NCBI RefSeq assembly: GCF_000219875.1
Contig: NC_017167.1
Coordinates: 1,761,572 to 1,825,571 of the forward strand
From: Alicyclobacillus acidocaldarius subsp. acidocaldarius Tc-4-1
GTDB lineage: Bacteria; Bacillota; Bacilli; Alicyclobacillales; Alicyclobacillaceae
DNA: 64,000 nt
Direction: 5' to 3'
The notes beneath the pieces were generated by a model. It was not told the origin of the DNA and did not search any database. It saw only the letters and a list, made by a program, of their open reading frames with translations. Within the stretch, counting starts at the first letter, position 1. Each line of letters opens with the position of its first letter. Both the position numbers and the translations under genes were made by a program. This document shows positions 28,387 to 56,920 of the stretch, in pieces.

Positions 28387-28572
28387 TCACCATTGCCTCA
28401 CTGACGCCTCCTGCATGATGACCCTTGACTCCGGTTCTTGGTCTCGTTTGCGTTTGGTGTCATATTCCGCGAGCGTTCGCTGCCCGAACACCTCGATGAG
28501 GGGTGGAAAGTCGTCGCGTGGCCACCATTGGACGACCACCCAGACCGTGTCATTCGCTTGCATCGTTCTCAT
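28387..28572 (-). CDS. Small hypothetical protein
   Basis: 61 residues from MRTMQANDTV; NDTVWVVVQWWPRDDFPPLI and RTLAEYDTKRKRDQ. First ATG alternatives are close together. No family recognised. Confidence 0.45.
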   Translation of the reverse strand: MRTMQANDTVWVVVQWWPRDDFPPLIEVFGQRTLAEYDTKRKRDQEPESRVIMQEASVRQW

Positions 28573-28677
28573 TCGCCTCCAATCTCGATTTCCAATAGAG
28601 CCTCCACGTGCAGGAATCGAACATCTTCTTCTCGAATGCCTAGGTATCAATGCCATCTCCTTTGTTCTGGAGGTATC

Positions 28678-29289
28678 ATGAGACCATCAGAACCAAACCC
28701 CTGTAAGGAACCAGAGAAAGGCGGAAATCAAGAGACCAAAGATGCTATACACCAATGCGAAAGCTCCGGCCTCTTCTTCGAACTCTCCCCGATGGCGTTT
28801 CGGTCGCAATTTCAAGAATCCCAAAAGAAAGAAGAATGCCGAAGCATACAGAACGAACATTCATCTGCCCCCTCCAGTCCTTTTCTGTCTTTGCTTTGGT
28901 CGTGGTATCGCGATTCGTTATGGGGAATCTTTTGCTGGTTCCATCCACGCTTCAAAAGTACAAATCCATACAACCGCTCCACGATAGAAATGTTCATGAT
29001 ATGTCTCAGCGGAGCCATACTATTCTTTGTAATGTATTTTCTACTCGAAAATTCACGATCTGTACCAAATCTAAGTTGGTCGAATCCCGGAACCTGGTTT
29101 TTATTCCTCGGATTTTCTCTCTTTTCGTTGCTCGCATCAATTTTAGGTGCACTTTTCACGGTTGTGATGTTTCCCCTCCTTTTGTGGATTGCAAGATGGT
29201 GCGTCACTTGTCTGAAATCCGCAAAGTCCAAATTGAAGCGTTCGAAGAAAAAGCGGCATACCAACAACGAAATAGGTAAAACTAATTAA
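28678..29289 (+). CDS. Membrane protein on the strand opposite to the operon
   Basis: 203 residues from ATG 28678 with TGGAGG just before. The C-terminal half has two or three hydrophobic segments (FMICLSGAILFFVMYFLLEN; WFLFLGFSLFSLLASILGAL; VVMFPLLLWIARWCV) and a lysine-rich tail (KSKLKRSKKKR). The only plus-strand gene inside the minus-strand replication module apart from the IS. May be a lysogen-expressed cargo gene. Not recognised; the N-terminal half is less convincing. Confidence 0.5.
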   Translation: MRPSEPNPCKEPEKGGNQETKDAIHQCESSGLFFELSPMAFRSQFQESQKKEECRSIQNEHSSAPSSPFLSLLWSWYRDSLWGIFCWFHPRFKSTNPYNRSTIEMFMICLSGAILFFVMYFLLENSRSVPNLSWSNPGTWFLFLGFSLFSLLASILGALFTVVMFPLLLWIARWCVTCLKSAKSKLKRSKKKRHTNNEIGKTN

Positions 29290-34313: not shown

Positions 34314-37184
34314 TCAGCCTTCAACCACAGGTATCCGACCACACGGATTTCTGATTGGCTCCCCTGATCCCGCGAAATTCCCCACTTTTTCAGAGCTCTC
34401 GTTGCCGTAGTTTGACCGCAGACGTTCAAAAAGCGTGCTGGTACTGACCTTTTTACGACCCAATTCTTCTGCAAAGAGTTCGATCGCTTTCGTCGCCAAT
34501 GCTCGCGGAACGACGTACTGATCAGCATCCCTATCGTGAGTCGGAAACTCGAAGATGCCATTTTGAATAGCCGCCTGAACTACATCGTTATTGGCCCAAT
34601 AATCCAAGCGAACACGGCGCATTTCAGGAGATTCGGTGAGCCTTCGCCCGTCTAAGCGCATCTTCAGGTAATACTTCACTGCAAGGAAGAATAGATAGGA
34701 CAGCGCCTCTTTCGTGTGCAGCCGCTTTTCCCAATCCGCGTTCATTACGGGAAACTGCTTATGGAAAGGGAAAATCAACGGCCTGCGGAAGAAGCCAAAG
34801 CTCGTATCTGGTGTCGGTGGCAGATAGTTTGCTGCCATCCACAGTTTCAAACGCGGGCGGAAAGGAAACGCATCCCGATACTTCATTTCCGCAGTAAGCA
34901 AATCATTCCCTGTAAGTTTCTTGATGGTTTCCGTGTCCTTTAAAGTTTGATTTGAGGCGTCGGCGACGATGTTTACTGCAGCACGAGCCAACCGTCCTGC
35001 CGCAAATCGATTCTCCGCCAACTCTTGCAACGTTACCGTCTGTACAAACTTTCCACACATCGCCTCCAGAATCCTCAAGAACGTGCCCTTCCCGTTGTAT
35101 CCAGGACCTAGCAATATGAAGTACCTCTGTTCTCTCATATCAAATCGCGCCAACGTGTAACCCAAGGCTTCCAAGAGAGCCTGAAGAGTTTCCGGTGTAA
35201 ACTCATACAGACTCAAAAACTCGTCGATGTCTTCTTGGGCTTGCTTCATCGCCGGTGTCCAACGCCGCGGCCCCTCCGCCCACTGTGGCCACCATTCCAC
35301 ATTGATTTTCCACGTGACTCGACAATCAGGTGTGAAGTCCCGGAGAACTGGGTGCCCATCCGATACATCGAGCAACCCATTCAGCACCGGAAACACAGGA
35401 TCGGCGTCAAAGACGTCCACCACCTTGGCATCATCAACATTTCGTTCTTCATCAGCTTCTAAGAAATTCTTGTAAAGCGAAAAGATGTGGTTGATAGTGC
35501 CCATCGTCGCCCATCCCTTGTTTCGAGAGGCCAAGGCCTCTCCGATAAACCGCTTGACGACTTCCTCGTCCCCTTTTCTGAACTCGTAGTAACTGCCGTT
35601 ATACAGATTGATGCCCGAATAGAAGTAGTAGGAAGGAAAATCTTGATACAAGATCTTTGCAAAGTCCCAATGCGTCAACTCCCACTTGTCTCGTTCTTCG
35701 TCATAACGAACAGCTCGATTTCCAGAATGTTGCATCCAAGACTTGGCGATCTCAAATCTCATGCCTTGAGTACGCCAATAGTCTCTTGGAACAACTTCTT
35801 TCGTTTCGTCGAGCCCCCGGAGCACATCAAAGACTTCTGGATCCCGAACGATCACATCGTCCTCTCGTTCAACCTCGGTCCATTCGCCCGGGCTCTGCGT
35901 TGCGTTGTCTGTTCCTACCGTCCGTTTCATATTGGGATCGCCCGAAGGTAGACGATCGAACGTGATGCCATCCACCTGGCGCCCATCCAATCGAATCTCT
36001 TCTTTTGAGCTTCGCGGCATGCCGTAAATTCCCGTTTGTCCAATCGCCTTTGCATATGCTCTCCGCACCACTGTCGCCGGGCTGGTCTGTTTTGCGAAGT
36101 GCGGACACTCCTGGCATAATTGCAGCGGATCGAGGGCGTGAAATGTTGAACAACGAATCGGCTTTCCCTGACTCGACCGGAATTTGCGCTCCGTTTCCGG
36201 GAAACGGTATCTCTTATCCGGACCTGCGTTGTAACCCTTGGACCATTCGTGGAAGAGTACCGAATCCGGGTTGAGAGATTTCAGGAGCGACGCCATCTTG
36301 TGCCACACTGGTTCTGTCACGACGTTCGGCTCTGCGATGTACAACGCCATCCTGGGACATAACGCCGGCAAGTTCTCCCGGATAAAGTCTATCGGTACAG
36401 GATCCCATGCTTCGGTACTTCGCGAGTCGTCTGTGCGCAAGTCAATCGATTCTGATGTGTCAATTCCCATGGCTGCTGCCGCCTCGTCCAGCGCGTGTTC
36501 AAACGCGTCCGGATCGTACCTGTCATCGTTCTGGCTTTCGATTTTCACAAGAATCGGCGTACCTGATTTGGTATGAAGAGAACCCGGAATTCGCAATACC
36601 CGTGCCGCATCAGCCACTGCCGGATCACTGCCAAGCACACGCGCCAGTTTTCGCGAGATCTGAACACCTGTTGAAGCGTCAACGGACTTCGTGAAGCGGA
36701 AGTACAAGTGCTTGCCTTGCCCCCCACCGGAACGCACCACCGCGCTTGGCACGATCCCCAAGTCAGCTAATACCTCCAGCGCGCGCTCGGCGTGTTTCAT
36801 CCGCTGCGCGTCATCTTCATCGCCATGATCGTCTATGTCCGCCCAAGCGCCTCGACAACAATCGACATCCTCTCGACTACCGCCAACCCAACGTCCATCT
36901 TCTTCTCGTTTCACAGGTTTGTATCGAGGGCAGACACCAAAGTACCAGCCACACCGCGCCATGATCGCATCTTGGTAACCAGCGCGCAAGTGGTCCTCCA
37001 CATCCTCCAACCTGTTCGTCTGAAACGAACGCCGCCATCTCAAGGCCATCCTTGCTGCTTCCTCATCTTCACGGCGGTTGGGAATGGGACGAATTTCTAC
37101 GTACCCAAAGACCCCTTCAAACCACCATTTCAAGAATTCAACCGAAATTCTAGAATCACCATATACAACTTCCTGTTCCGGCAT
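34314..37184 (-). CDS. Phage-type primase-helicase (D5-like), C-terminus replaced by IS sequence
   Basis: 956 residues as read. The N-terminal part is an archaeo-eukaryotic-primase-like domain (WADIDDHGDEDDAQR; VVRSGGGQGKHLYFRF; AARVLRIPGSLHTKSG). A D5_N-like region follows. The SF3 helicase has Walker A GPGYNGKGTFLR, a Walker B region NIVADASNQTLKDTE, and LKLWMAANYLPPTPD. The last 29 residues (from ESSEKVGNFAG) are encoded by the IS end; the true end lies at 32170-32406. The helicase core is complete, so the protein may still work. Iterons lie just upstream of its start. Confidence 0.88.
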   Translation of the reverse strand: MPEQEVVYGDSRISVEFLKWWFEGVFGYVEIRPIPNRREDEEAARMALRWRRSFQTNRLEDVEDHLRAGYQDAIMARCGWYFGVCPRYKPVKREEDGRWVGGSREDVDCCRGAWADIDDHGDEDDAQRMKHAERALEVLADLGIVPSAVVRSGGGQGKHLYFRFTKSVDASTGVQISRKLARVLGSDPAVADAARVLRIPGSLHTKSGTPILVKIESQNDDRYDPDAFEHALDEAAAAMGIDTSESIDLRTDDSRSTEAWDPVPIDFIRENLPALCPRMALYIAEPNVVTEPVWHKMASLLKSLNPDSVLFHEWSKGYNAGPDKRYRFPETERKFRSSQGKPIRCSTFHALDPLQLCQECPHFAKQTSPATVVRRAYAKAIGQTGIYGMPRSSKEEIRLDGRQVDGITFDRLPSGDPNMKRTVGTDNATQSPGEWTEVEREDDVIVRDPEVFDVLRGLDETKEVVPRDYWRTQGMRFEIAKSWMQHSGNRAVRYDEERDKWELTHWDFAKILYQDFPSYYFYSGINLYNGSYYEFRKGDEEVVKRFIGEALASRNKGWATMGTINHIFSLYKNFLEADEERNVDDAKVVDVFDADPVFPVLNGLLDVSDGHPVLRDFTPDCRVTWKINVEWWPQWAEGPRRWTPAMKQAQEDIDEFLSLYEFTPETLQALLEALGYTLARFDMREQRYFILLGPGYNGKGTFLRILEAMCGKFVQTVTLQELAENRFAAGRLARAAVNIVADASNQTLKDTETIKKLTGNDLLTAEMKYRDAFPFRPRLKLWMAANYLPPTPDTSFGFFRRPLIFPFHKQFPVMNADWEKRLHTKEALSYLFFLAVKYYLKMRLDGRRLTESPEMRRVRLDYWANNDVVQAAIQNGIFEFPTHDRDADQYVVPRALATKAIELFAEELGRKKVSTSTLFERLRSNYGNESSEKVGNFAGSGEPIRNPCGRIPVVEG

Positions 37185-37312
37185 TTATCAGAACCCTCGC
37201 TTTCCACATGATCCTCTTCATGATATGTTCATCATGAAAATCGATCAGTGTGGCAATGGTGCCATAATCTCCTCTTCCTTCTTCCTCCTCTCTCTCTTTT
37301 TTAAGGGGGGGT

Positions 37313-37567
37313 GTATAGGTAAAGAGAAAAGTGCGTAGGTAGTGTGTAGGTATTGCTTAGGTGTGTGCTTAGGTAAGAATGGCGGTATGACGCGGTTTTT
37401 GGGGATTTGCTTAGGTAGAGGGTAGAGTGTAGATTTTGTTTTGTGGTAATGTAGATTTGCGTAGAACCTCTGACCTAAGCAAATCGTTTGGATCCGCGTC
37501 GTTATGCGATTTTTACCTAAGCAGGAACCTAAGCACACCCTAAGCAGTTCCTAAGCGCAACCTAAGC
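37313..37567. repeat. Iteron arrays, candidate replication origin
   Basis: Short repeats with core GCTTAGGT lie in two opposed clusters. Left cluster: GCGTAGGT 37333, GTGTAGGT 37344, GCTTAGGT 37355 and 37367 (steps of 11-12), plus one at 37409. Right cluster, reverse complement ACCTAAGC: 37473, 37515, 37527, CCCTAAGC 37538, TCCTAAGC 37549, ACCTAAGC 37560 (steps of 11-12). Between them is a T-rich stretch. It sits right upstream of the primase-helicase gene. The 11-base step equals about one helical turn, as in iteron origins. The right cluster runs into the 3' end of the next gene. Confidence 0.75.
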
Positions 37568-37884
37568 GATCGTTCAGTTTCTTCCAGTTTTCTTAGGGCT
37601 GCTGTGATTTTCCCTGCATTCGGAAGGAGCCATTGGCGTCGGAACTCTTCCCAATCCTCCTTTGTGTCAAACCCTCGTTTCGGGTCAATGGTCGGTTCGA
37701 TGCGGTAGTGTCCGTCTGTCAGAAACAATCGGCATCCTGCACATCGTGCGCCATTTAAGATCCAGCCAATTTCTTCATCATCCACAACTTTAGTTAGAAG
37801 AAGTTCCCACACATCATGATCAAGTGTGAGTTCAGACCGCGGATCCCAGCGCCAATCATGTGCATGCCAATCACTAATACCCAC
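37540..37884 (-). CDS. Hypothetical protein next to the iterons
   Basis: 114 residues as read from GTG 37884; a later start is possible because AGGAGG is only two bases away. RCAGCRLF is a possible metal pair, and the C-terminal residues ETERSLRLRLGT are encoded by iterons. Could be an origin-binding or regulatory protein, but nothing in the sequence proves it. Confidence 0.5.
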   Translation of the reverse strand: MGISDWHAHDWRWDPRSELTLDHDVWELLLTKVVDDEEIGWILNGARCAGCRLFLTDGHYRIEPTIDPKRGFDTKEDWEEFRRQWLLPNAGKITAALRKLEETERSLRLRLGTA

Positions 37885-38058
37885 CGCCTCCTTTCACCAT
37901 CTGCAATACAACCGATTCGATGGATCATTGTTGTCAACCATGTGGCGTCCCGACAGGCGCGAACGCGCCTGAAGCGCGGAACACTCGCCTTTGCCGTGTC
38001 CCAGATTTGCGCCTGCCGAACGCCACAGGCGGGCGGTGCCTCCGCCGCCCGGCGCAGC

Positions 38059-38115
38059 GCACGAACTGCTGGGACAACAGTGCGCCATTTGGCGCGTGAT
38101 TATTGCAGCTCGTGC
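38059..38115. ncRNA. Candidate branched RNA fold
   Basis: Outer arms GCACGAACTGC (38059-38069) and GCAGCTCGTGC (38105-38115) pair with one mismatch and enclose a perfect inner stem GCGCC ATTT GGCGC (38082-38095). No known family recognised. Confidence 0.35.
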
Positions 38116-38241
38116 ACCGGGCGGGGCAGCGGAGTGGCACGAACGTGTGCCGAGAGAAGACCTCTCTACTCACAGGTGTGCTGTAGGACAAACACACGTT
38201 CGCAAAAATCCCCAAGAACCCGCGCCACGACTGGGTTTGTT

Positions 38242-38291
38242 ATTTTCATCCAAACGAAATCTCGATCATGAAATTTTCGTATGGATGAAAT
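38242..38291. ncRNA. Candidate long hairpin
   Basis: Arms ATTTTCATCCAAACGAAAT (38242-38260) and, on the other side, sequence whose complement is ATTTCATCCATACGAAAAT (38272-38291), with an 11-base loop. Only one or two bulges and mismatches. A/T-rich, unlike its GC-rich surroundings. Confidence 0.4.
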
Positions 38292-38461
38292 GCATGAACA
38301 TAAACATCGTGCATATTCAGTTTTCAAGGTTCGGTCTAGCACCGCACATCGCCCAATGTTGCGAATCTCGTTGCGTTTGGCGATACGCTGGCGCCGAGGA
38401 CACCAAGGGCATCCTCTGCTGTTGCTTAAAGCGGGCGTCGTCAGACACCCGAGAGGGTTCG

Positions 38462-38526
38462 CGGTTCGCCCCTCCACTCTGTACCGAAGACCTTCGGTAC
38501 AGGGCGCAAGGGCGAAGCCTTGCGTT
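38462..38526 (-). ncRNA. Double-hairpin element, copy A
   Basis: Directly after the Bro-N gene stop on the minus strand: stem CGCAAGG with loop, then CTGTACCGAA paired with TTCGGTACAG (38479-38502), then GGAGGGGCGAA. The order stem, stem, G-rich tail with GGCGAA is shared with copies B, C and D. Confidence 0.55.
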
Positions 38527-38528
38527 GA

Positions 38529-39305
38529 CTATTCCTCTAGGTCGATTCGGTTCCCCATGAAATGCTTGGTTAGCATCTCACGCCCGCGTTCGTTATATCG
38601 AAACGCTTCAACCTGCTTGTTGCTGTATGGCGACTTGTCGAGTACGAACTTCCCAAATTCGTCGGTCTTTAATCCAAGTGCGTTCGCTGCGCGGCCAACT
38701 GCATTAGCCGATACACCAAGTTCCTCTGCAATTTCCGTCGCCGTATACAATCGCTCCGTCGTTGGAAGCGGAAGCATTTCACGTCCAGCAAGCAAATTTG
38801 CACTGAACGCAAGCAAACTCTCGATCGCCACATCCGACAGGCGATCTTTGAATCGATATGTCATGTCAAGGAGCAATTTCGCTTGGCGTGTCTTGGCGTT
38901 GAGCTCCATGATCATGATCCGCTTTTGCGCGATCTCATCCTGCTGTCTGCGCTCGGACGTCTTGTATTCGCCGGTTTTACGAATGGAAGGTAGGACTTCG
39001 TGATAAGTCCAACGCTTGAATTGTTCGGCTTGCTCCACGCGACTCGTAAAGATTAAGCGGTACAGGCCTGCCTCGTTAACAACAGCCATCTTCTGAGGAC
39101 CACCAGGGGTGTAAACAGTACTTACACCCTTTTCGTCGTCATCCAACCGCTCCAGTGCGGCGCGATTGTTAGAATGCCCCAACGCTTCACACACATCTTT
39201 TGCTACCCACCATGGCTGACCGTCAATGATAACAACTCGCACCTTGCGTCCTTGATACGTCAACTCCATCAGCGAACTGCTGTTTTCTGTGTCTGTTGGC
39301 TTCAT
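38529..39305 (-). CDS. Bro-N domain phage antirepressor
   Basis: 258 residues. The N-terminal Bro-N domain shows QPWWVAKDVCEALGHSNNRA, LDDDEKGVSTVYTPGG, VVNEAGLYRLIFTSR and FKRWTYHEVLPSIRKTGEY. The C-terminal half has a helix-turn-helix TATEIAEELGVSANAVGRAA. Such proteins act as antirepressors or DNA-binding regulators in temperate phages. Flanked on both sides by double-hairpin elements A and B. Confidence 0.88.
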   Translation of the reverse strand: MKPTDTENSSSLMELTYQGRKVRVVIIDGQPWWVAKDVCEALGHSNNRAALERLDDDEKGVSTVYTPGGPQKMAVVNEAGLYRLIFTSRVEQAEQFKRWTYHEVLPSIRKTGEYKTSERRQQDEIAQKRIMIMELNAKTRQAKLLLDMTYRFKDRLSDVAIESLLAFSANLLAGREMLPLPTTERLYTATEIAEELGVSANAVGRAANALGLKTDEFGKFVLDKSPYSNKQVEAFRYNERGREMLTKHFMGNRIDLEE

Positions 39306-39349
39306 AGAATCCCTCCCATCGATGTTAGGGAACGACCGACATCTGGAGG

Positions 39350-39427
39350 CTTCGCCCCTCCGCTCGACGCCGAATCGCTTCGGCGCCCGGCGCAGGGGCG
39401 CGCCCTGCGCGCTCTCTAGGCGTTGAC
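39350..39427 (-). ncRNA. Double-hairpin element, copy B
   Basis: Minus-strand order: GTCAACGC, stem GCGCAGGG with CCCCTGCGC, stem GCGCCGAA with TTCGGCGTC, then GGAGGGGCGAAGCC. Begins with the same GTCAACGC as copy A. Lies in the leader of the Bro-N gene. Confidence 0.55.
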
Positions 39428-39440
39428 AAAGGGAGGTTCA

Positions 39441-39700
39441 CCCACTGTAACAGTGGGCTATGGTGCCGGCTGTTTTCACCCGCTACCACGGCGGGCAGCG
39501 CACAACCGGCGAAGCGACCATGCCTTGCCATAGCCTGCCGAACCTGACCACGCCTCAGCCCGCCTCACCAAGCCATTCCAGACCCTACCCCACCGAGGCT
39601 TGCCGTGCCACACCCGGCCATGAACGTTGGAGCGGTTCTTCGCCGCCCCGACCCGCCTCCGAGACACCTCGGAGACACGTCGCGGAAGCGAAGCTTCCGC
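39441..39700 (-). ncRNA. Conserved noncoding unit C (double hairpin, pentamer run, 3' domain)
   Basis: Fills the gap between the RAMP-like gene and the Bro-N leader. In minus-strand sense: stems GCGGAAG/CTTCCGC (39682-39700) and CTCCGAG/CTCGGAG (39657-39674), then GGGGCGGCGAAG, the pentamer run, and a closing block containing GCTTCGCCGGTTG and CAGCCGG, ending with the hairpin CCCACTG TAA CAGTGGG (39441-39457). The same order and closing block occur in unit D, so the two are duplicates. No coding frame is conserved. Confidence 0.6.
39518..39622. repeat. Phased pentamer run CCNNN, 21 units
   Basis: Twenty-one consecutive 5-mers, 18 starting with CC on the plus strand (CCATG, CCTTG, CCATA, CCGAA, CCTGA, CCACG, CCTCA and so on). 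The phase is never lost although the other three bases vary, so this is not simple-sequence slippage alone. The opposite strand reads GGNNN-type repeats. Confidence 0.85.
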
Positions 39701-39709
39701 TCAAGGCAC

Positions 39710-40330
39710 TCACTCCACGTCGTCCTCCAACACCTTATACTCCACCACCTGAAATCTTCCAAACATTGGCCTATAATCTCCAATTCCAACCAACCTTCCC
39801 GCTTGAACCAGTAGGTCATAGAGCAGTTCCGGACTGATATATTCTGGAAGAAGACACTCAACTTGAAATTCAACTTCCCACCCTGGTAACAGCGCTGGAC
39901 GAACCCTGGTAACTCCCGCTCGTTGAACTAAAACACGGCGTCTATCAAGAAAGTCTGGTTGTGCTTTTCCCGTTGAAGCCAGCCACGGCGTCACGATAAA
40001 TGCAGCTTTAGATAAATCTGACATTGACTTTCTTGGCGAGCGAGGATCCTGCTTGAACTTCGCAGCGTTCGCTAGTGCCTGATGGAGATATGTAGCGGGA
40101 ACACAGATTTCTCCATCCTCGTTGCGGTAGAGATAAGCTTCTACATTATCGGTCTTCTTGGCAGAGCTACCCTTTGCAGCCTGCGCCTTGGCTTCGACGT
40201 CTTCACAATCCCATCGGTGAAATAACAGCGGAACCGTGCCCTTCAGCTTGACCGCCACCCGATACGGCAGTGCAAATTGAACGTTGTTTCCATCGACCGT
40301 GAGACCTATAATGGAGTTGGCAACTGACAT
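39710..40330 (-). CDS. RAMP-like phage protein of unknown function
   Basis: 206 residues. The C-terminal glycine-rich stretch GRLVGIGDYRPMFGRFQV resembles the G-rich loop that closes ferredoxin-like RAMP folds (Cas5/Cas6/Cas7 type). Middle contains EICVPATYLHQALANAAKF and a lysine-rich loop KGSSAKKTDN. It lies between the two duplicated noncoding units and downstream of the zinc-ribbon and nuclease genes. Nucleic-acid binding is a reasonable guess; RAMP relation is only a motif impression. Confidence 0.55.
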   Translation of the reverse strand: MSVANSIIGLTVDGNNVQFALPYRVAVKLKGTVPLLFHRWDCEDVEAKAQAAKGSSAKKTDNVEAYLYRNEDGEICVPATYLHQALANAAKFKQDPRSPRKSMSDLSKAAFIVTPWLASTGKAQPDFLDRRRVLVQRAGVTRVRPALLPGWEVEFQVECLLPEYISPELLYDLLVQAGRLVGIGDYRPMFGRFQVVEYKVLEDDVE

Positions 40331-40357
40331 TCGTCTTTCACCCTTTCGTTTAGGATG

Positions 40358-40608
40358 GAGCGGCGCGAACGCCGCTCTTTTGTTGTTCCCGGCTGATTTC
40401 AGACACTACCTCGGTGTCCAGCGCTCAACCGGGGAAGCGGCCATGCCTTGCCAAACCTCACCGCGGCTCACCCAACCAGGCCCGACCTCACCATGCCATG
40501 CCACGCCTCGCCTAGCCTGACCATGCCATAATTTATGGAGCGACTTGTTCGCCGCCCCACACCGCCTCCGAAGCATTCGGAAGCGTTGTGCGGAGGCGAA
40601 CCCTCCGC
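40358..40608 (-). ncRNA. Conserved noncoding unit D (double hairpin, pentamer run, 3' domain)
   Basis: Starts two bases after the stop of the zinc-ribbon gene. Stems GCGGAGG/CCTCCGC (40590-40608) and CTTCCGAA/TTCGGAG (40566-40583), G-rich tail GGGGCGGCGAAC, pentamer run, closing block with GCTTCCCCGGTTG and CAGCCGG, and a perfect terminal hairpin GAGCGGCG CGAA CGCCGCTC (40358-40377). Duplicate of unit C. Confidence 0.6.
40441..40530. repeat. Phased pentamer run CCNNN, 18 units
   Basis: Eighteen consecutive 5-mers, 17 beginning CC (CCATG, CCTTG, CCAAA, CCTCA, CCGCG, then GCTCA, CCCAA, CCAGG and on to CCATA). The first two units match those of the other run. Same phase throughout. Confidence 0.85.
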
Positions 40609-40609
40609 A

Positions 40610-41209
40610 TCACGCCTGCGCAGCCTGAGCGGTTTCCTCCGTCGCACTCGGTTGCGCGTCGGAAACGCCGTCCACCGCCAAGTAATCGGAGATTTCAACC
40701 GAGATTGACCGGTGCTTCGCCTCAAGCTCCTTTCCAATTTTCAACACTCGCGCCTTCTCCAACGGCGTTAGCTCTCTAACAATCTTTGGTGCAGTGAGTT
40801 GACTCCAAGTCATCGCGCCGTTTCTACGAACTTCCAACGATAGTTCAATCAAATAACTCGATACCAATTGACCTCTGAATTTGATTGCACTTACAAATTT
40901 ATCCCAAGCCTTATGCGACGACGGCGGCAAGTTTACAATCGCCGGAATCGCGCTGTCGCCTTCCAAAACATAGAGCCTGCGAATCGTCTTACACGCTTTT
41001 CCTCTTCCTCCGTTTGGATCCGTCCCAAAAACGTTATATGGACAGGATTCGCACTTTCGGAAGCAAGTGATTCCGTTCTCATCTAGATACTTTCCGACTC
41101 GCCCATCATGAGAACTGCAAAGCGGCAGCGAACTTTCTCCTTCGGACTGTGGCGTGAACAAAACCCGAGCGGTGTGAAAATATGGAACTTTTACTTGGAG
41201 TTTTTGCAC
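40610..41209 (-). CDS. Phage zinc-ribbon protein, possible ssDNA-binding or annealing partner
   Basis: 199 residues. CFRKCESCPYNVF followed by GRGKACKTIRRLYVLEGDSA is a pattern seen in phage proteins encoded near recombination nucleases. Later part: HKAWDKFVSAIKFRGQLVSS. Overlaps the start of the 78-residue gene upstream by 19 bases; followed at once by unit D. Function by context only. Confidence 0.6.
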   Translation of the reverse strand: MQKLQVKVPYFHTARVLFTPQSEGESSLPLCSSHDGRVGKYLDENGITCFRKCESCPYNVFGTDPNGGRGKACKTIRRLYVLEGDSAIPAIVNLPPSSHKAWDKFVSAIKFRGQLVSSYLIELSLEVRRNGAMTWSQLTAPKIVRELTPLEKARVLKIGKELEAKHRSISVEISDYLAVDGVSDAQPSATEETAQAAQA

Positions 41210-41427
41210 AATTTCTCCGGTTGCCTCATTTTGGAAGGCGCCTGCCGCCCCAACGATCCGAAACGAACCGGAACAATCTCAGCTTCCGCCTCAAGCTGCG
41301 CAGCCTCTTCCTGAAGCTTTGCGTACTCTTCCAACGTGATCCCATTCGCTTCGAGTTCCTGCGCCTGCTGAACTGTGAGACCAAGCTTCCTCAGAAGTTC
41401 CTCGTCAAACTGAACCGGCAGTGTCAT
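41191..41427 (-). CDS. Small coiled-coil protein
   Basis: 78 residues: VQQAQELEANGITLEEYAKLQEE-type helix (split here: VQQAQELEANG, ITLEEYAKLQEEAAQLEAE). AGGAGG before the start. No family recognised. Confidence 0.55.
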   Translation of the reverse strand: MTLPVQFDEELLRKLGLTVQQAQELEANGITLEEYAKLQEEAAQLEAEAEIVPVRFGSLGRQAPSKMRQPEKLCKNSK

Positions 41428-41461
41428 TGTCCATTCCTCCTTGTTTCGTTGGAATTCGTTG

Positions 41462-42391
41462 TTAAGCTGTCTCGATACTCAGTTCATCGTGTTGTTGCGT
41501 TGACAAGAAATACAGTGACTCTCTTGCACCTTCCACATTTAAGCAAAGTGGAAGGAACGGGCACCCACCGTATTGGTGGCAATTGGCGGTGTTGTGACGA
41601 ACCACACCCGAACGCGCTTGCCAATTGCGTTCCAAGCACTCCATCCAAAGTTCGCTTTCAAACTGTTTGATCTGTTCTGGGGCTCGGATCACCTCGTCTT
41701 CTGACAAGTACTTGTCGGGGTTCGACTCGTACTCCGCCAGGAGCCGGTCCCGGAAGTCCTCCCAGGTTTCCACCACCTCTCCGTTGCGCCGTTTGGGTTC
41801 CATGCGGCTCTTCTGCACAGCTCTCACGATTGCACCTGCAATCGGCCTGTCGAAGACCCGCGACGCAGCATATACATATAATGTTAATTGTTGGGACATA
41901 CCGTAACTCTGTTTGAACTGTTCGATGGAGGCCGTGGTCTTGTTCTCAAGAATCCACAGGTTTCCATGTTCATCTTCGCAAATCCCATCGATCTTTCCGC
42001 CCAGCGCGTACTTTCTCGACTTGTGCCCGGTGGCGGGATTCAAGATTGGAATTTCAAACTCTCTCTCAACCGCTACCAACCGTCGCGGTTTGAAATGTCG
42101 AACTGCGAACCGAATCATGCATTCGGTGCGGATGCGCTCAAGCTGGAGTTTGTACCGCTCCTCTTCACTCTCCGGTCGGATCCAGTCCAACGTCTCCAAG
42201 CCCGTCCTCACCGCACCGTCCTCGTCAACCTCGCCCCGCTGCCACAACTCCAACCCCCGATGCCACGCGCTTCCAATTGAGAGCGCCCAGGAGACCTCGC
42301 GCGGGCGAAGCCGCTCCACGTACCACAACCATTCCTTCGTTGGGCACGTCTGCCGCATCGTGATGCGGCTGTGTGTCAGTAGTTCCACCAT
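41462..42391 (-). CDS. PD-(D/E)XK nuclease, RecB/Cas4-like with Fe-S cysteines
   Basis: 309 residues. H44 in GSAWHRGLE, E110 in VAVEREFEIP, D135 in GGKIDGI and E149-x-K151 in LWILENKT form the RecB-type active site, with a QxxxY motif at about 168-172. C16 plus CHQYGGCPFLPLC at the C-terminus give four cysteines as in Cas4 and AddB [4Fe-4S] nucleases. Probably the 5'-3' resection nuclease of the element's recombination system, together with the zinc-ribbon and RAMP-like proteins. Confidence 0.88.
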   Translation of the reverse strand: MVELLTHSRITMRQTCPTKEWLWYVERLRPREVSWALSIGSAWHRGLELWQRGEVDEDGAVRTGLETLDWIRPESEEERYKLQLERIRTECMIRFAVRHFKPRRLVAVEREFEIPILNPATGHKSRKYALGGKIDGICEDEHGNLWILENKTTASIEQFKQSYGMSQQLTLYVYAASRVFDRPIAGAIVRAVQKSRMEPKRRNGEVVETWEDFRDRLLAEYESNPDKYLSEDEVIRAPEQIKQFESELWMECLERNWQARSGVVRHNTANCHQYGGCPFLPLCLNVEGARESLYFLSTQQHDELSIETA

Positions 42392-42476
42392 TTTTTACGC
42401 CCTCCCCTTGCCAACGCCCGAGCTTCGTGCTAGAATCTGTGGTGCGCTGTGCGTATTGTTCTACTGCCTGTTCCCA

Positions 42477-42695
42477 TCAGGCGTTCTCTTTTTGCACCTC
42501 GATTTCGTCTTCCCCAATGATCTCCGTCGACTCCCAGCATTCCGAACAGAACCAAGATGCCCCGTCCTGAATGGCGGTGTCCTCATCGAGCACGTCTCCG
42601 CAGCACTCGCATTCCAGAACCTCGTCCTCATCATCGAAGCTCCACAGTGCCGCGTCTTCTTCGGGCGTCATCAACTTCCACTGATCGTAAGTCAT
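42477..42695 (-). CDS. Small zinc-finger protein
   Basis: 72 residues from MTYDQWKLMTPEEDAALWSF; ECECCGDVL and WFCSECWES make a four-cysteine knuckle. Start ATG overlaps the previous stop. No family recognised. Confidence 0.65.
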   Translation of the reverse strand: MTYDQWKLMTPEEDAALWSFDDEDEVLECECCGDVLDEDTAIQDGASWFCSECWESTEIIGEDEIEVQKENA

Positions 42696-42808
42696 GCCAC
42701 CTCGACCTCCTCGTGAAGTGCTTCGAGATCCGCGATGGTGTACCGCGCGCGGTCCGGGTCGTTCCGGTCGCCGTCGCACAGTTTGGAGATGATGTACTCA
42801 TACAGCAT
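42692..42808 (-). CDS. 38-residue acidic protein
   Basis: Frame MLYEYIISKLCDGDRNDPDR then RYTIADLEALHEEVEVA, its stop overlapping the next ATG (ATGA). It fits exactly between two coupled small genes. Confidence 0.5.
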   Translation of the reverse strand: MLYEYIISKLCDGDRNDPDRARYTIADLEALHEEVEVA

Positions 42809-56791: not shown

Positions 56792-56828
56792 CCGACAACG
56801 CTCCTTCACTCAGACTCGCTGCTCCGGC

Positions 56829-56920
56829 AGGCTGCAAGGCGCGCAGCCTTTGAAAGCCGGCGGCATGCGGTTACAGTGATGCACTCGAAGCATTGTATCA
56901 CAACTTTGAAACATCCACAA
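56829..56920 (-). promoter_or_regulatory. rplU promoter and probable L21 leader
   Basis: TTGTGG (56915-56920), 17 bases, TACAAT (56892-56897) on the minus strand, overlapping the spoIVFB stop. The roughly 100-base leader contains the stem GGCTGC GCGCCTT GCAGCC (56829-56847), fitting an autogenous L21 leader. Confidence 0.65.

Follow-up and report, generated by a model that had tools for sequence, protein, structure and literature searches.

Two tandem arrays of Alicyclobacillus acidocaldarius subsp. acidocaldarius Tc-4-1, together with the small gene that lies between them, very probably form a prophage-borne VIPR system, consisting of two vrRNAs and a Cas7-like Vipr protein, with guides that fit genes of competing mobile elements. 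VIPR was described in a 2026 preprint (PMC13142463) as a phage RAMP protein, Vipr, with vrRNAs of alternating GGY and NN motifs that carry a 3′ tail; it reads double-stranded DNA via the NN letters, with one base skipped, and acts against competing phages. The examples in the preprint are Escherichia phage SUSP1 and a Pseudomonas fulva prophage, and a search of the literature found no further paper on the subject. The evidence from Alicyclobacillus consists of the arrays themselves, the homology and fold of Vipr, covariation in the tail, matches with a skip of one base beyond those of shuffled guides, and a poorer match of guides to their own alleles.

The window (the whole stretch of 64,000 nucleotides that was analysed) contains two runs of consecutive pentamers whose positions, unit counts and phase agree with the original prediction, with CC in 18 of 21 and 17 of 18 pentamers and no phase slip. 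Its reading of the units as CC pentamers holds, but the strand has to be corrected: the meaningful strand is the minus strand, that of the operon, and the unit is NNGGY. The remark that no standard element has this form was fair before the VIPR preprint, which describes it. Both arrays are far from chance. Within phased windows of 18 pentamers CC was seen 17 and 15 times, against a maximum of 13 in 20000 order-1 Markov sequences generated from the letters of the two runs themselves. An NNGGY detector gave the two runs scores of 70.3 and 73.8, compared with 20.4 as the top of 20 Markov shuffles of the 64 kb, and the autocorrelation, a check that had been proposed with the prediction, is 0.40–0.58 at lags 5, 10, 15 and 20 and 0.18–0.33 at the remaining lags up to 19. 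Since the detector, and likewise the unit counts near Vipr relatives given below, presuppose GG, base frequencies at detected array sites are biased. The tandem YNNGG organization, with conserved GGY and variable NN, is that of VIPR. Leader-like, hairpin-rich stretches free of pentamer runs were also seen by eye on either side of the BRO gene, at 38455–38525 and 39345–39420.

Table 1. Features of the VIPR locus (window coordinates)
Feature	Position	Strand	Basis or remark
BRO-family anti-repressor gene, downstream of vrRNA 2	38529..39305	minus	PF02498; anti-repressor PHROGs
vrRNA 2 3′ tail, two nested stems	39461..39516	minus	covariation over 13 distinct tails; single-sequence fold
vrRNA 2 repeat tract (guide 2)	39517..39621	minus	21 NNGGY units, GG in 18
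Hairpin-rich leader 5′ of array 2	39622..39700	minus	sequence
vipr gene, 206 aa	39710..40330	minus	Cas7-like RAMP fold; phrog_4652 (annotated unknown function)
vrRNA 1 3′ tail, two nested stems	40384..40439	minus	covariation over 13 distinct tails; single-sequence fold
vrRNA 1 repeat tract (guide 1)	40440..40529	minus	18 NNGGY units, GG in 17
Hairpin-rich leader 5′ of array 1	40530..40608	minus	sequence
Zinc-ribbon gene (phrog_23155, annotated unknown function)	40610..41427	minus	target of other prophages' guides
Zinc-ribbon site corresponding to L033:8001-8085 footprint	41250..41287	plus	holds one-base gap vs relatives
PD-(D/E)XK nuclease gene, same operon	41462..42391	minus	PF12705; exonuclease PHROGs
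Own allele of small gene fitted by guide 1 elsewhere	42767..42808	minus	20/28 letters match

The genes are transcribed in the order PD-(D/E)XK nuclease, zinc-ribbon gene, array 1, RAMP-like gene, array 2 and BRO anti-repressor, and the window's zinc-ribbon gene is frameshifted into two frames (41191–41427 and 40610–41209). We assign the locus to a prophage because the operon region holds phage-type genes (an anti-repressor, a phage primase and matches to exonuclease PHROGs), which are not structural genes; carriage mainly by phages or proviruses is also a property of VIPR. The nuclease probably has a role in phage recombination rather than in VIPR. A clear vipr-accessory (vap) gene was not seen at the window locus, where no gene like vap1 directly follows vipr, and zinc-ribbon and nuclease genes are rare beside the vipr genes of relatives. 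A contig of a Bacillota MAG (L104:8-1396) begins with a Vipr relative, after which comes a zinc-ribbon gene that shares 52 % identity with the one of locus L029; no array was seen in the stretch examined.

The earlier description of the gene between the arrays as RAMP-like was correct, as judged from both its homology to the SUSP1 Vipr and its fold. In a single comparison, the window protein is 28 % identical over 188 aa (E-value 5e-13) to the product of the SUSP1 gene at 28474–29061, which we identify as vipr because the one array upstream of it and the three downstream agree with PMC13142463. An AlphaFold model of the window protein, made with a nine-row alignment, has a mean pLDDT of 73.8 and a pTM of 0.71, and the structures that it matches best are Cas7/Csm3-type subunits of CRISPR effectors (Foldseek E-value 2.3e-5; VIA-align Z 11.2, with 164 residues aligned at an rmsd of 4.1). 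The protein is thus a small RAMP homologous to a known Vipr that shares the fold of the backbone subunits (Cas7, Csm3) of Class 1 CRISPR-Cas effectors, and RNA-guided recognition by a filament of such subunits is presumably a principle common to both; the two differ in that the code is gapped rather than contiguous, and the sequence identity is very low (7–18 %). No repeat-spacer array of the CRISPR kind was present among the tandem repeats or the gathering-score Rfam matches of the window, and no cas family was found in Pfam for eight neighbouring proteins, so that the locus does not qualify as a Class 1 CRISPR-Cas system.

A lack of homologues outside this genome had been named with the original prediction as part of what would refute it; homologues occur well beyond it, in both named and viral genomes. 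A DNA search of 15 Alicyclobacillus genomes with unit 1 gave matches in four, its own included, and the RAMP-like protein is found in five of the 15, two of these matches being weak (E-values 2e-8 and 4e-7). The first of the two lies beside a 16-unit array (L041:2127-2206, genome G007), and no adjoining array was found for the second. A second locus of this kind in the genome of Tc-4-1 itself repeats 270 bases around array 2 without a change and has another two arrays; within the genus the 15 arrays, representing 14 distinct guides, are 14–22 units long. Eight Vipr loci were found in viral contigs with a single-protein query, and 80 were retained from the 325 candidate stretches that an alignment query gave. 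Another 31 loci are in named genomes, many of them Planctomycetota, with others in Bacillota, Pseudomonadota, one cyanobacterium and more; Alicyclobacillus sendaiensis NBRC 100866 is among them. When a phage collection was searched at the nucleotide level with 39300–40640, Phage DSL-LC04 alone matched (E-value 3e-3). The DSL-LC04 protein (OR003939; annotated as 'helix-turn-helix transcriptional regulator') is 56 % identical to the window protein and likewise has NNGGY arrays beside its gene, as do the phrog_4652 relatives of IMG/VR loci L021–L028 (48–54 % identity in aligned rows). The layout of the arrays in these relatives nevertheless differs from that of the window: at L027:1229-1885 the Vipr gene is followed by about nine blocks of 9–12 NNGGY units with T-rich spacers resembling TACTTTGTTTATTT. 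Felixounavirus genes, such as gene 95 of Escherichia phage wV8, match the window protein in sequence and have NNGGY runs on both sides, two of which score 46.6 and 47.9, although the relationship is distant (41.7 % identity over 72 aa) and another gene directly follows the wV8 gene, as in SUSP1.

A period-5 GG array lies within 1.5 kb of the Vipr relative, on the strand of the gene, in 101 of the 118 loci with enough flank (one of 119 was dropped for short flanks), and was below the detection threshold in the other 17; arrays with periods of 3, 4, 6, 7 or 8 were found on either strand in 0 to 2 of the 118. This association bears on two readings of the arrays that do not involve a guide RNA. 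One, which we consider very improbable, is a DNA element, either a site that stimulates recombination or a quadruplex, a G-rich fold that the nuclease would use. A GG every five bases does permit two-layer quadruplexes, and a PD-(D/E)XK nuclease gene lies upstream, but the arrays accompany vipr, whereas the nuclease is near Vipr at only one of 122 loci and the zinc-ribbon gene at three (counted in flanks that reached at most 5 kb and were often shorter). The fixed 3 nt loop is moreover not something that a quadruplex requires. One genome, G002, has arrays and the nuclease without Vipr. A recombination site and a G-rich fold had both been suggested in the original prediction, and neither gained any support. 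The other reading, in which a coding repeat lost its frame and left the runs behind, is barely credible: some open frames do cross the runs, but a period of five bases is unfit for codons, no phase slip occurs in runs of up to 31 units in which just two of five letters are near-invariant, and the arrays lie beside Vipr and, in the genus, are followed by a covarying RNA tail. The phase and the code likewise argue against this origin, which had been named at the outset as one that would overturn the prediction.

We favour the reading of the arrays as RNA, and a structured 3′ tail follows each tract. The flank shared by the two units, described originally as CCGGCTG...AACCGG...GAAGCG, is this double-stem tail, which on the minus strand is 3′ of the array. 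Among 13 distinct tails, double-sided changes were found in 10 of the 14 pairs, 99.5 % of cells are paired, and the covariation score was matched by none of 500 shuffles. No Rfam family was found on the arrays at the gathering score, nor on nine viral and phage loci, which therefore have no hammerhead either; three weak Rfam matches within 37000–42500 were rejected as being at chance level. The sole Rfam match in the window at the gathering score is a ribosomal protein L21 leader (RF00559) at 56802–56882 on the minus strand.

If the arrays are guides, their NN letters should specify DNA targets with a 1 nt skip. The NN letters of the 14 distinct guides, with the last units left off, were compared with 420 kb at skips of 0, 1 and 2. 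This target set was chosen, not random, and comprised stretches around VIPR arrays plus one element that had come from the genome search with guide 2, which makes the guide-2 result of the scan partly circular; its wider test is a model search of 15 genomes. A skip of 1 scored above skips of 0 and 2 for 11 of the 14 guides. Controls with shuffled unit order cover skip 1. Of 60 shuffled guides, not one equalled the real guide for six of the 14 (guide 1, guide 2, L029:9830, L029:10899, L030:1141 and L033:8001), and one did so for another three (L005:9544, L031 and L032); L005:6506 (3/60) and L034 (7/60) are weak, and three guides gave no target signal in the scan (L029:10003, 14/60; L030:1326, 32/60; L030:218, 60/60). 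L032 and L034, L005:9544 and L029:10899, and L031 and L005:6506 are related pairs, so the 14 guides amount to about 11 independent ones. In model searches of the 15 genomes, with up to 150 candidates scored per genome, guide 1 found G012:C81:3660-3700 (E-value 1.5e-5) and G002:C1:1135681-1135721 (3.3e-4), the next match being at 0.17, and guide 2 found G000:C1:352504-352553 (2.0e-5), with the next at 0.15. In the 10 best guide–target pairs the skip falls on the third codon position of the respective frame, a placement that for the antisense L033 pair was obtained by reading of the alignment and for L005:6506 refers to a frame that may not be a gene.

These matches are what tells against a further explanation, in which Vipr coats the arrays only as a scaffold or decoy RNA, or the arrays attenuate their own operon in cis in the manner of TRAP sites, and the NN letters are without information. 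The fixed 5 nt register, the RNA structure that adjoins the array and the location within an operon would suit it, as would the three guides without a target signal. It does not account for skip-1 matches of the NN letters to rival genes that, for six of the 14 guides, shuffled guides fail to equal, for a skip that in the 10 best pairs falls on the wobble base, or for two genome-wide model searches that rank these sites far ahead of the next match, and we regard it as improbable. Most probably the variable NN letters encode targets, and the element would then be a guide RNA. An earlier suggestion of a structured or protein-wrapped RNA with a 5 nt register came close to this but missed the guide role of the NN letters.

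Guide 1 fits two other, related prophages, in each of which 12 of 14 units match a short open frame that precedes the nuclease gene on its upstream side. Guide 2 fits, in 13 of 18 units, an 85-aa frame flanked by a Rep_trans-like gene (below the Pfam cut-off) and a divergent HTH gene. These are the best matches seen, and a perfect target was found for neither guide of the window. By letters, guide 2 fits its target in 31 of 36 positions over 18 units and in 32 of 42 over 21. The surrounding region also holds an FtsK-like gene and an integrase and is read as an integrative element; its FtsK-like, Rep_trans-like and HTH genes lie in L071:1-417 and L070:17112-19810 (about 349600–352900 of G000:C1), on the same chromosome as the window and thus as two copies of guide 2. 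The same 85-aa frame is fitted at another site by two related guides of other loci, making three guides in all. Other guides fit the zinc-ribbon gene (L029:9830, L030:1141 and L033:8001), the primase gene (L031) or a primase-like sequence (L005:6506), and the vipr gene itself (L032 and, weakly, L034). Four other genomes have homologues of the protein whose gene guide 2 fits, with no guide match in any of them (best 22 of 36). When the guide-2 model was run over the family (41 genomes), three matches were obtained beyond its own genome (E-values 6.8e-4, 0.0056 and 0.0079), none of which we count; the first, close to the end of a contig in G039, matches nine full units in a row. An exact 18-letter pattern from guide 1 had no match in viral contigs, and three matches to that from guide 2 were taken as chance, their full-guide scores being 24, 20 and 23 of 36.

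The last three or four pentamers of the guides seem not to be read. In the best 10 pairs, some of which were chosen without the last units, the number of letters matched per unit (of two) is 0.5–0.6 in the last three units, 1.1 in the fourth from the end and 1.5–2.0 in units 5 to 15 from the end, and this poor matching suggests that the guide ends short of the tail by three or four pentamers. All 14 distinct guides have AT or GT as their final unit.

Four guides were compared with the copy of their target gene in their own locus, and for each of them the own allele is the lowest or tied lowest by letters. Guide 1 matches its own allele in 20 of 28 letters and the best rival in 26 of 28; the corresponding values are 18/26 and 25/26 for the L033 guide, 20/28 and 26/28 for L030:1141, and 10/18 and 17/18 for L029:9830. 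Counted by full units, one rival of guide 1 falls below the own allele (8/14 versus 9/14). Several of the orthologous sites in this comparison were aligned incompletely, and a separate alignment was used for the L030 guide; the comparison covered guide 1 and the three zinc-ribbon guides.

Genome G002, in which the zinc-ribbon gene is present without vipr, carries three vrRNA loci beside that gene, each with an array and a tail (L032:8642-8736, L033:8001-8085 and L034:79-188), L034 being a near-copy of L032 that is three units longer. No Vipr was detected in this genome at an E-value of 0.001, and a search of the vrRNA surroundings at an E-value of 10 gave chance-level matches only. The G002 guides nevertheless fit genes of Vipr-bearing loci, with the fit to vipr being the weaker (1/60 and 7/60 shuffles). 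It is possible, though rather doubtful, that these orphan vrRNAs, aimed at Vipr-bearing rivals, could load onto a rival's Vipr in a shared cell and so turn the weapon on its owner, in which case the frameshift in the window's zinc-ribbon gene, a one-base gap against its relatives that lies within the footprint of the L033 guide, would be an escape mutation. The L033 footprint covers about 5 % of that gene, and the position of the frameshift could therefore also be a coincidence or a sequencing error. The main text of PMC13142463, in which vrRNAs against other VIPR systems and single-vrRNA systems are reported and the words self, solo and escape are absent, was not found to contain unread last pentamers, a vrRNA genome without Vipr or a frameshift inside a rival's footprint.

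In most respects the Alicyclobacillus locus resembles the VIPR systems of SUSP1 and the P. fulva prophage, with a RAMP protein, a GGY/NN tract and a structured 3′ tail; as in SUSP1, there are arrays on both sides of vipr, and as described in PMC13142463 the code has a skip of 1 that falls mostly on the wobble base and the targets belong to competing mobile elements, other VIPR loci among them. It differs from the preprint's systems in having 14–22 units rather than 9–16, in a tail modelled here as two nested stems without a pseudoknot test, in the last three or four units that seem to go unread, and in the one genome with vrRNAs in which Vipr was not found; the differences from SUSP1 lie in the low identity of Vipr and in what follows the gene. 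An RNA–protein complex, DNA binding and repression are reported for other members (PMC13142463), and we infer the same for Alicyclobacillus. Two vrRNAs would be made from the operon strand, each an NNGGY tract followed by the double-stem tail, and Vipr would line up along the tract, gripping GGY and exposing NN. The NN letters would pair with double-stranded DNA as NNx NNx ..., leaving out one target base per unit at the codon wobble position, and the bound Vipr–vrRNA complex would repress the target gene. The guides would thereby act on rivals, guide 1 on a small operon gene of related prophages and guide 2 on the 85-aa gene of the integrative element.

The gapped VIPR code is thus supported, from sequence alone, in Alicyclobacillus, a genus that the main text of PMC13142463 does not name, and an end of the guide is suggested. 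We note that self-avoidance, escape and guide piracy could be tested in this small set of related prophages, for which guides, targets and own alleles are available.
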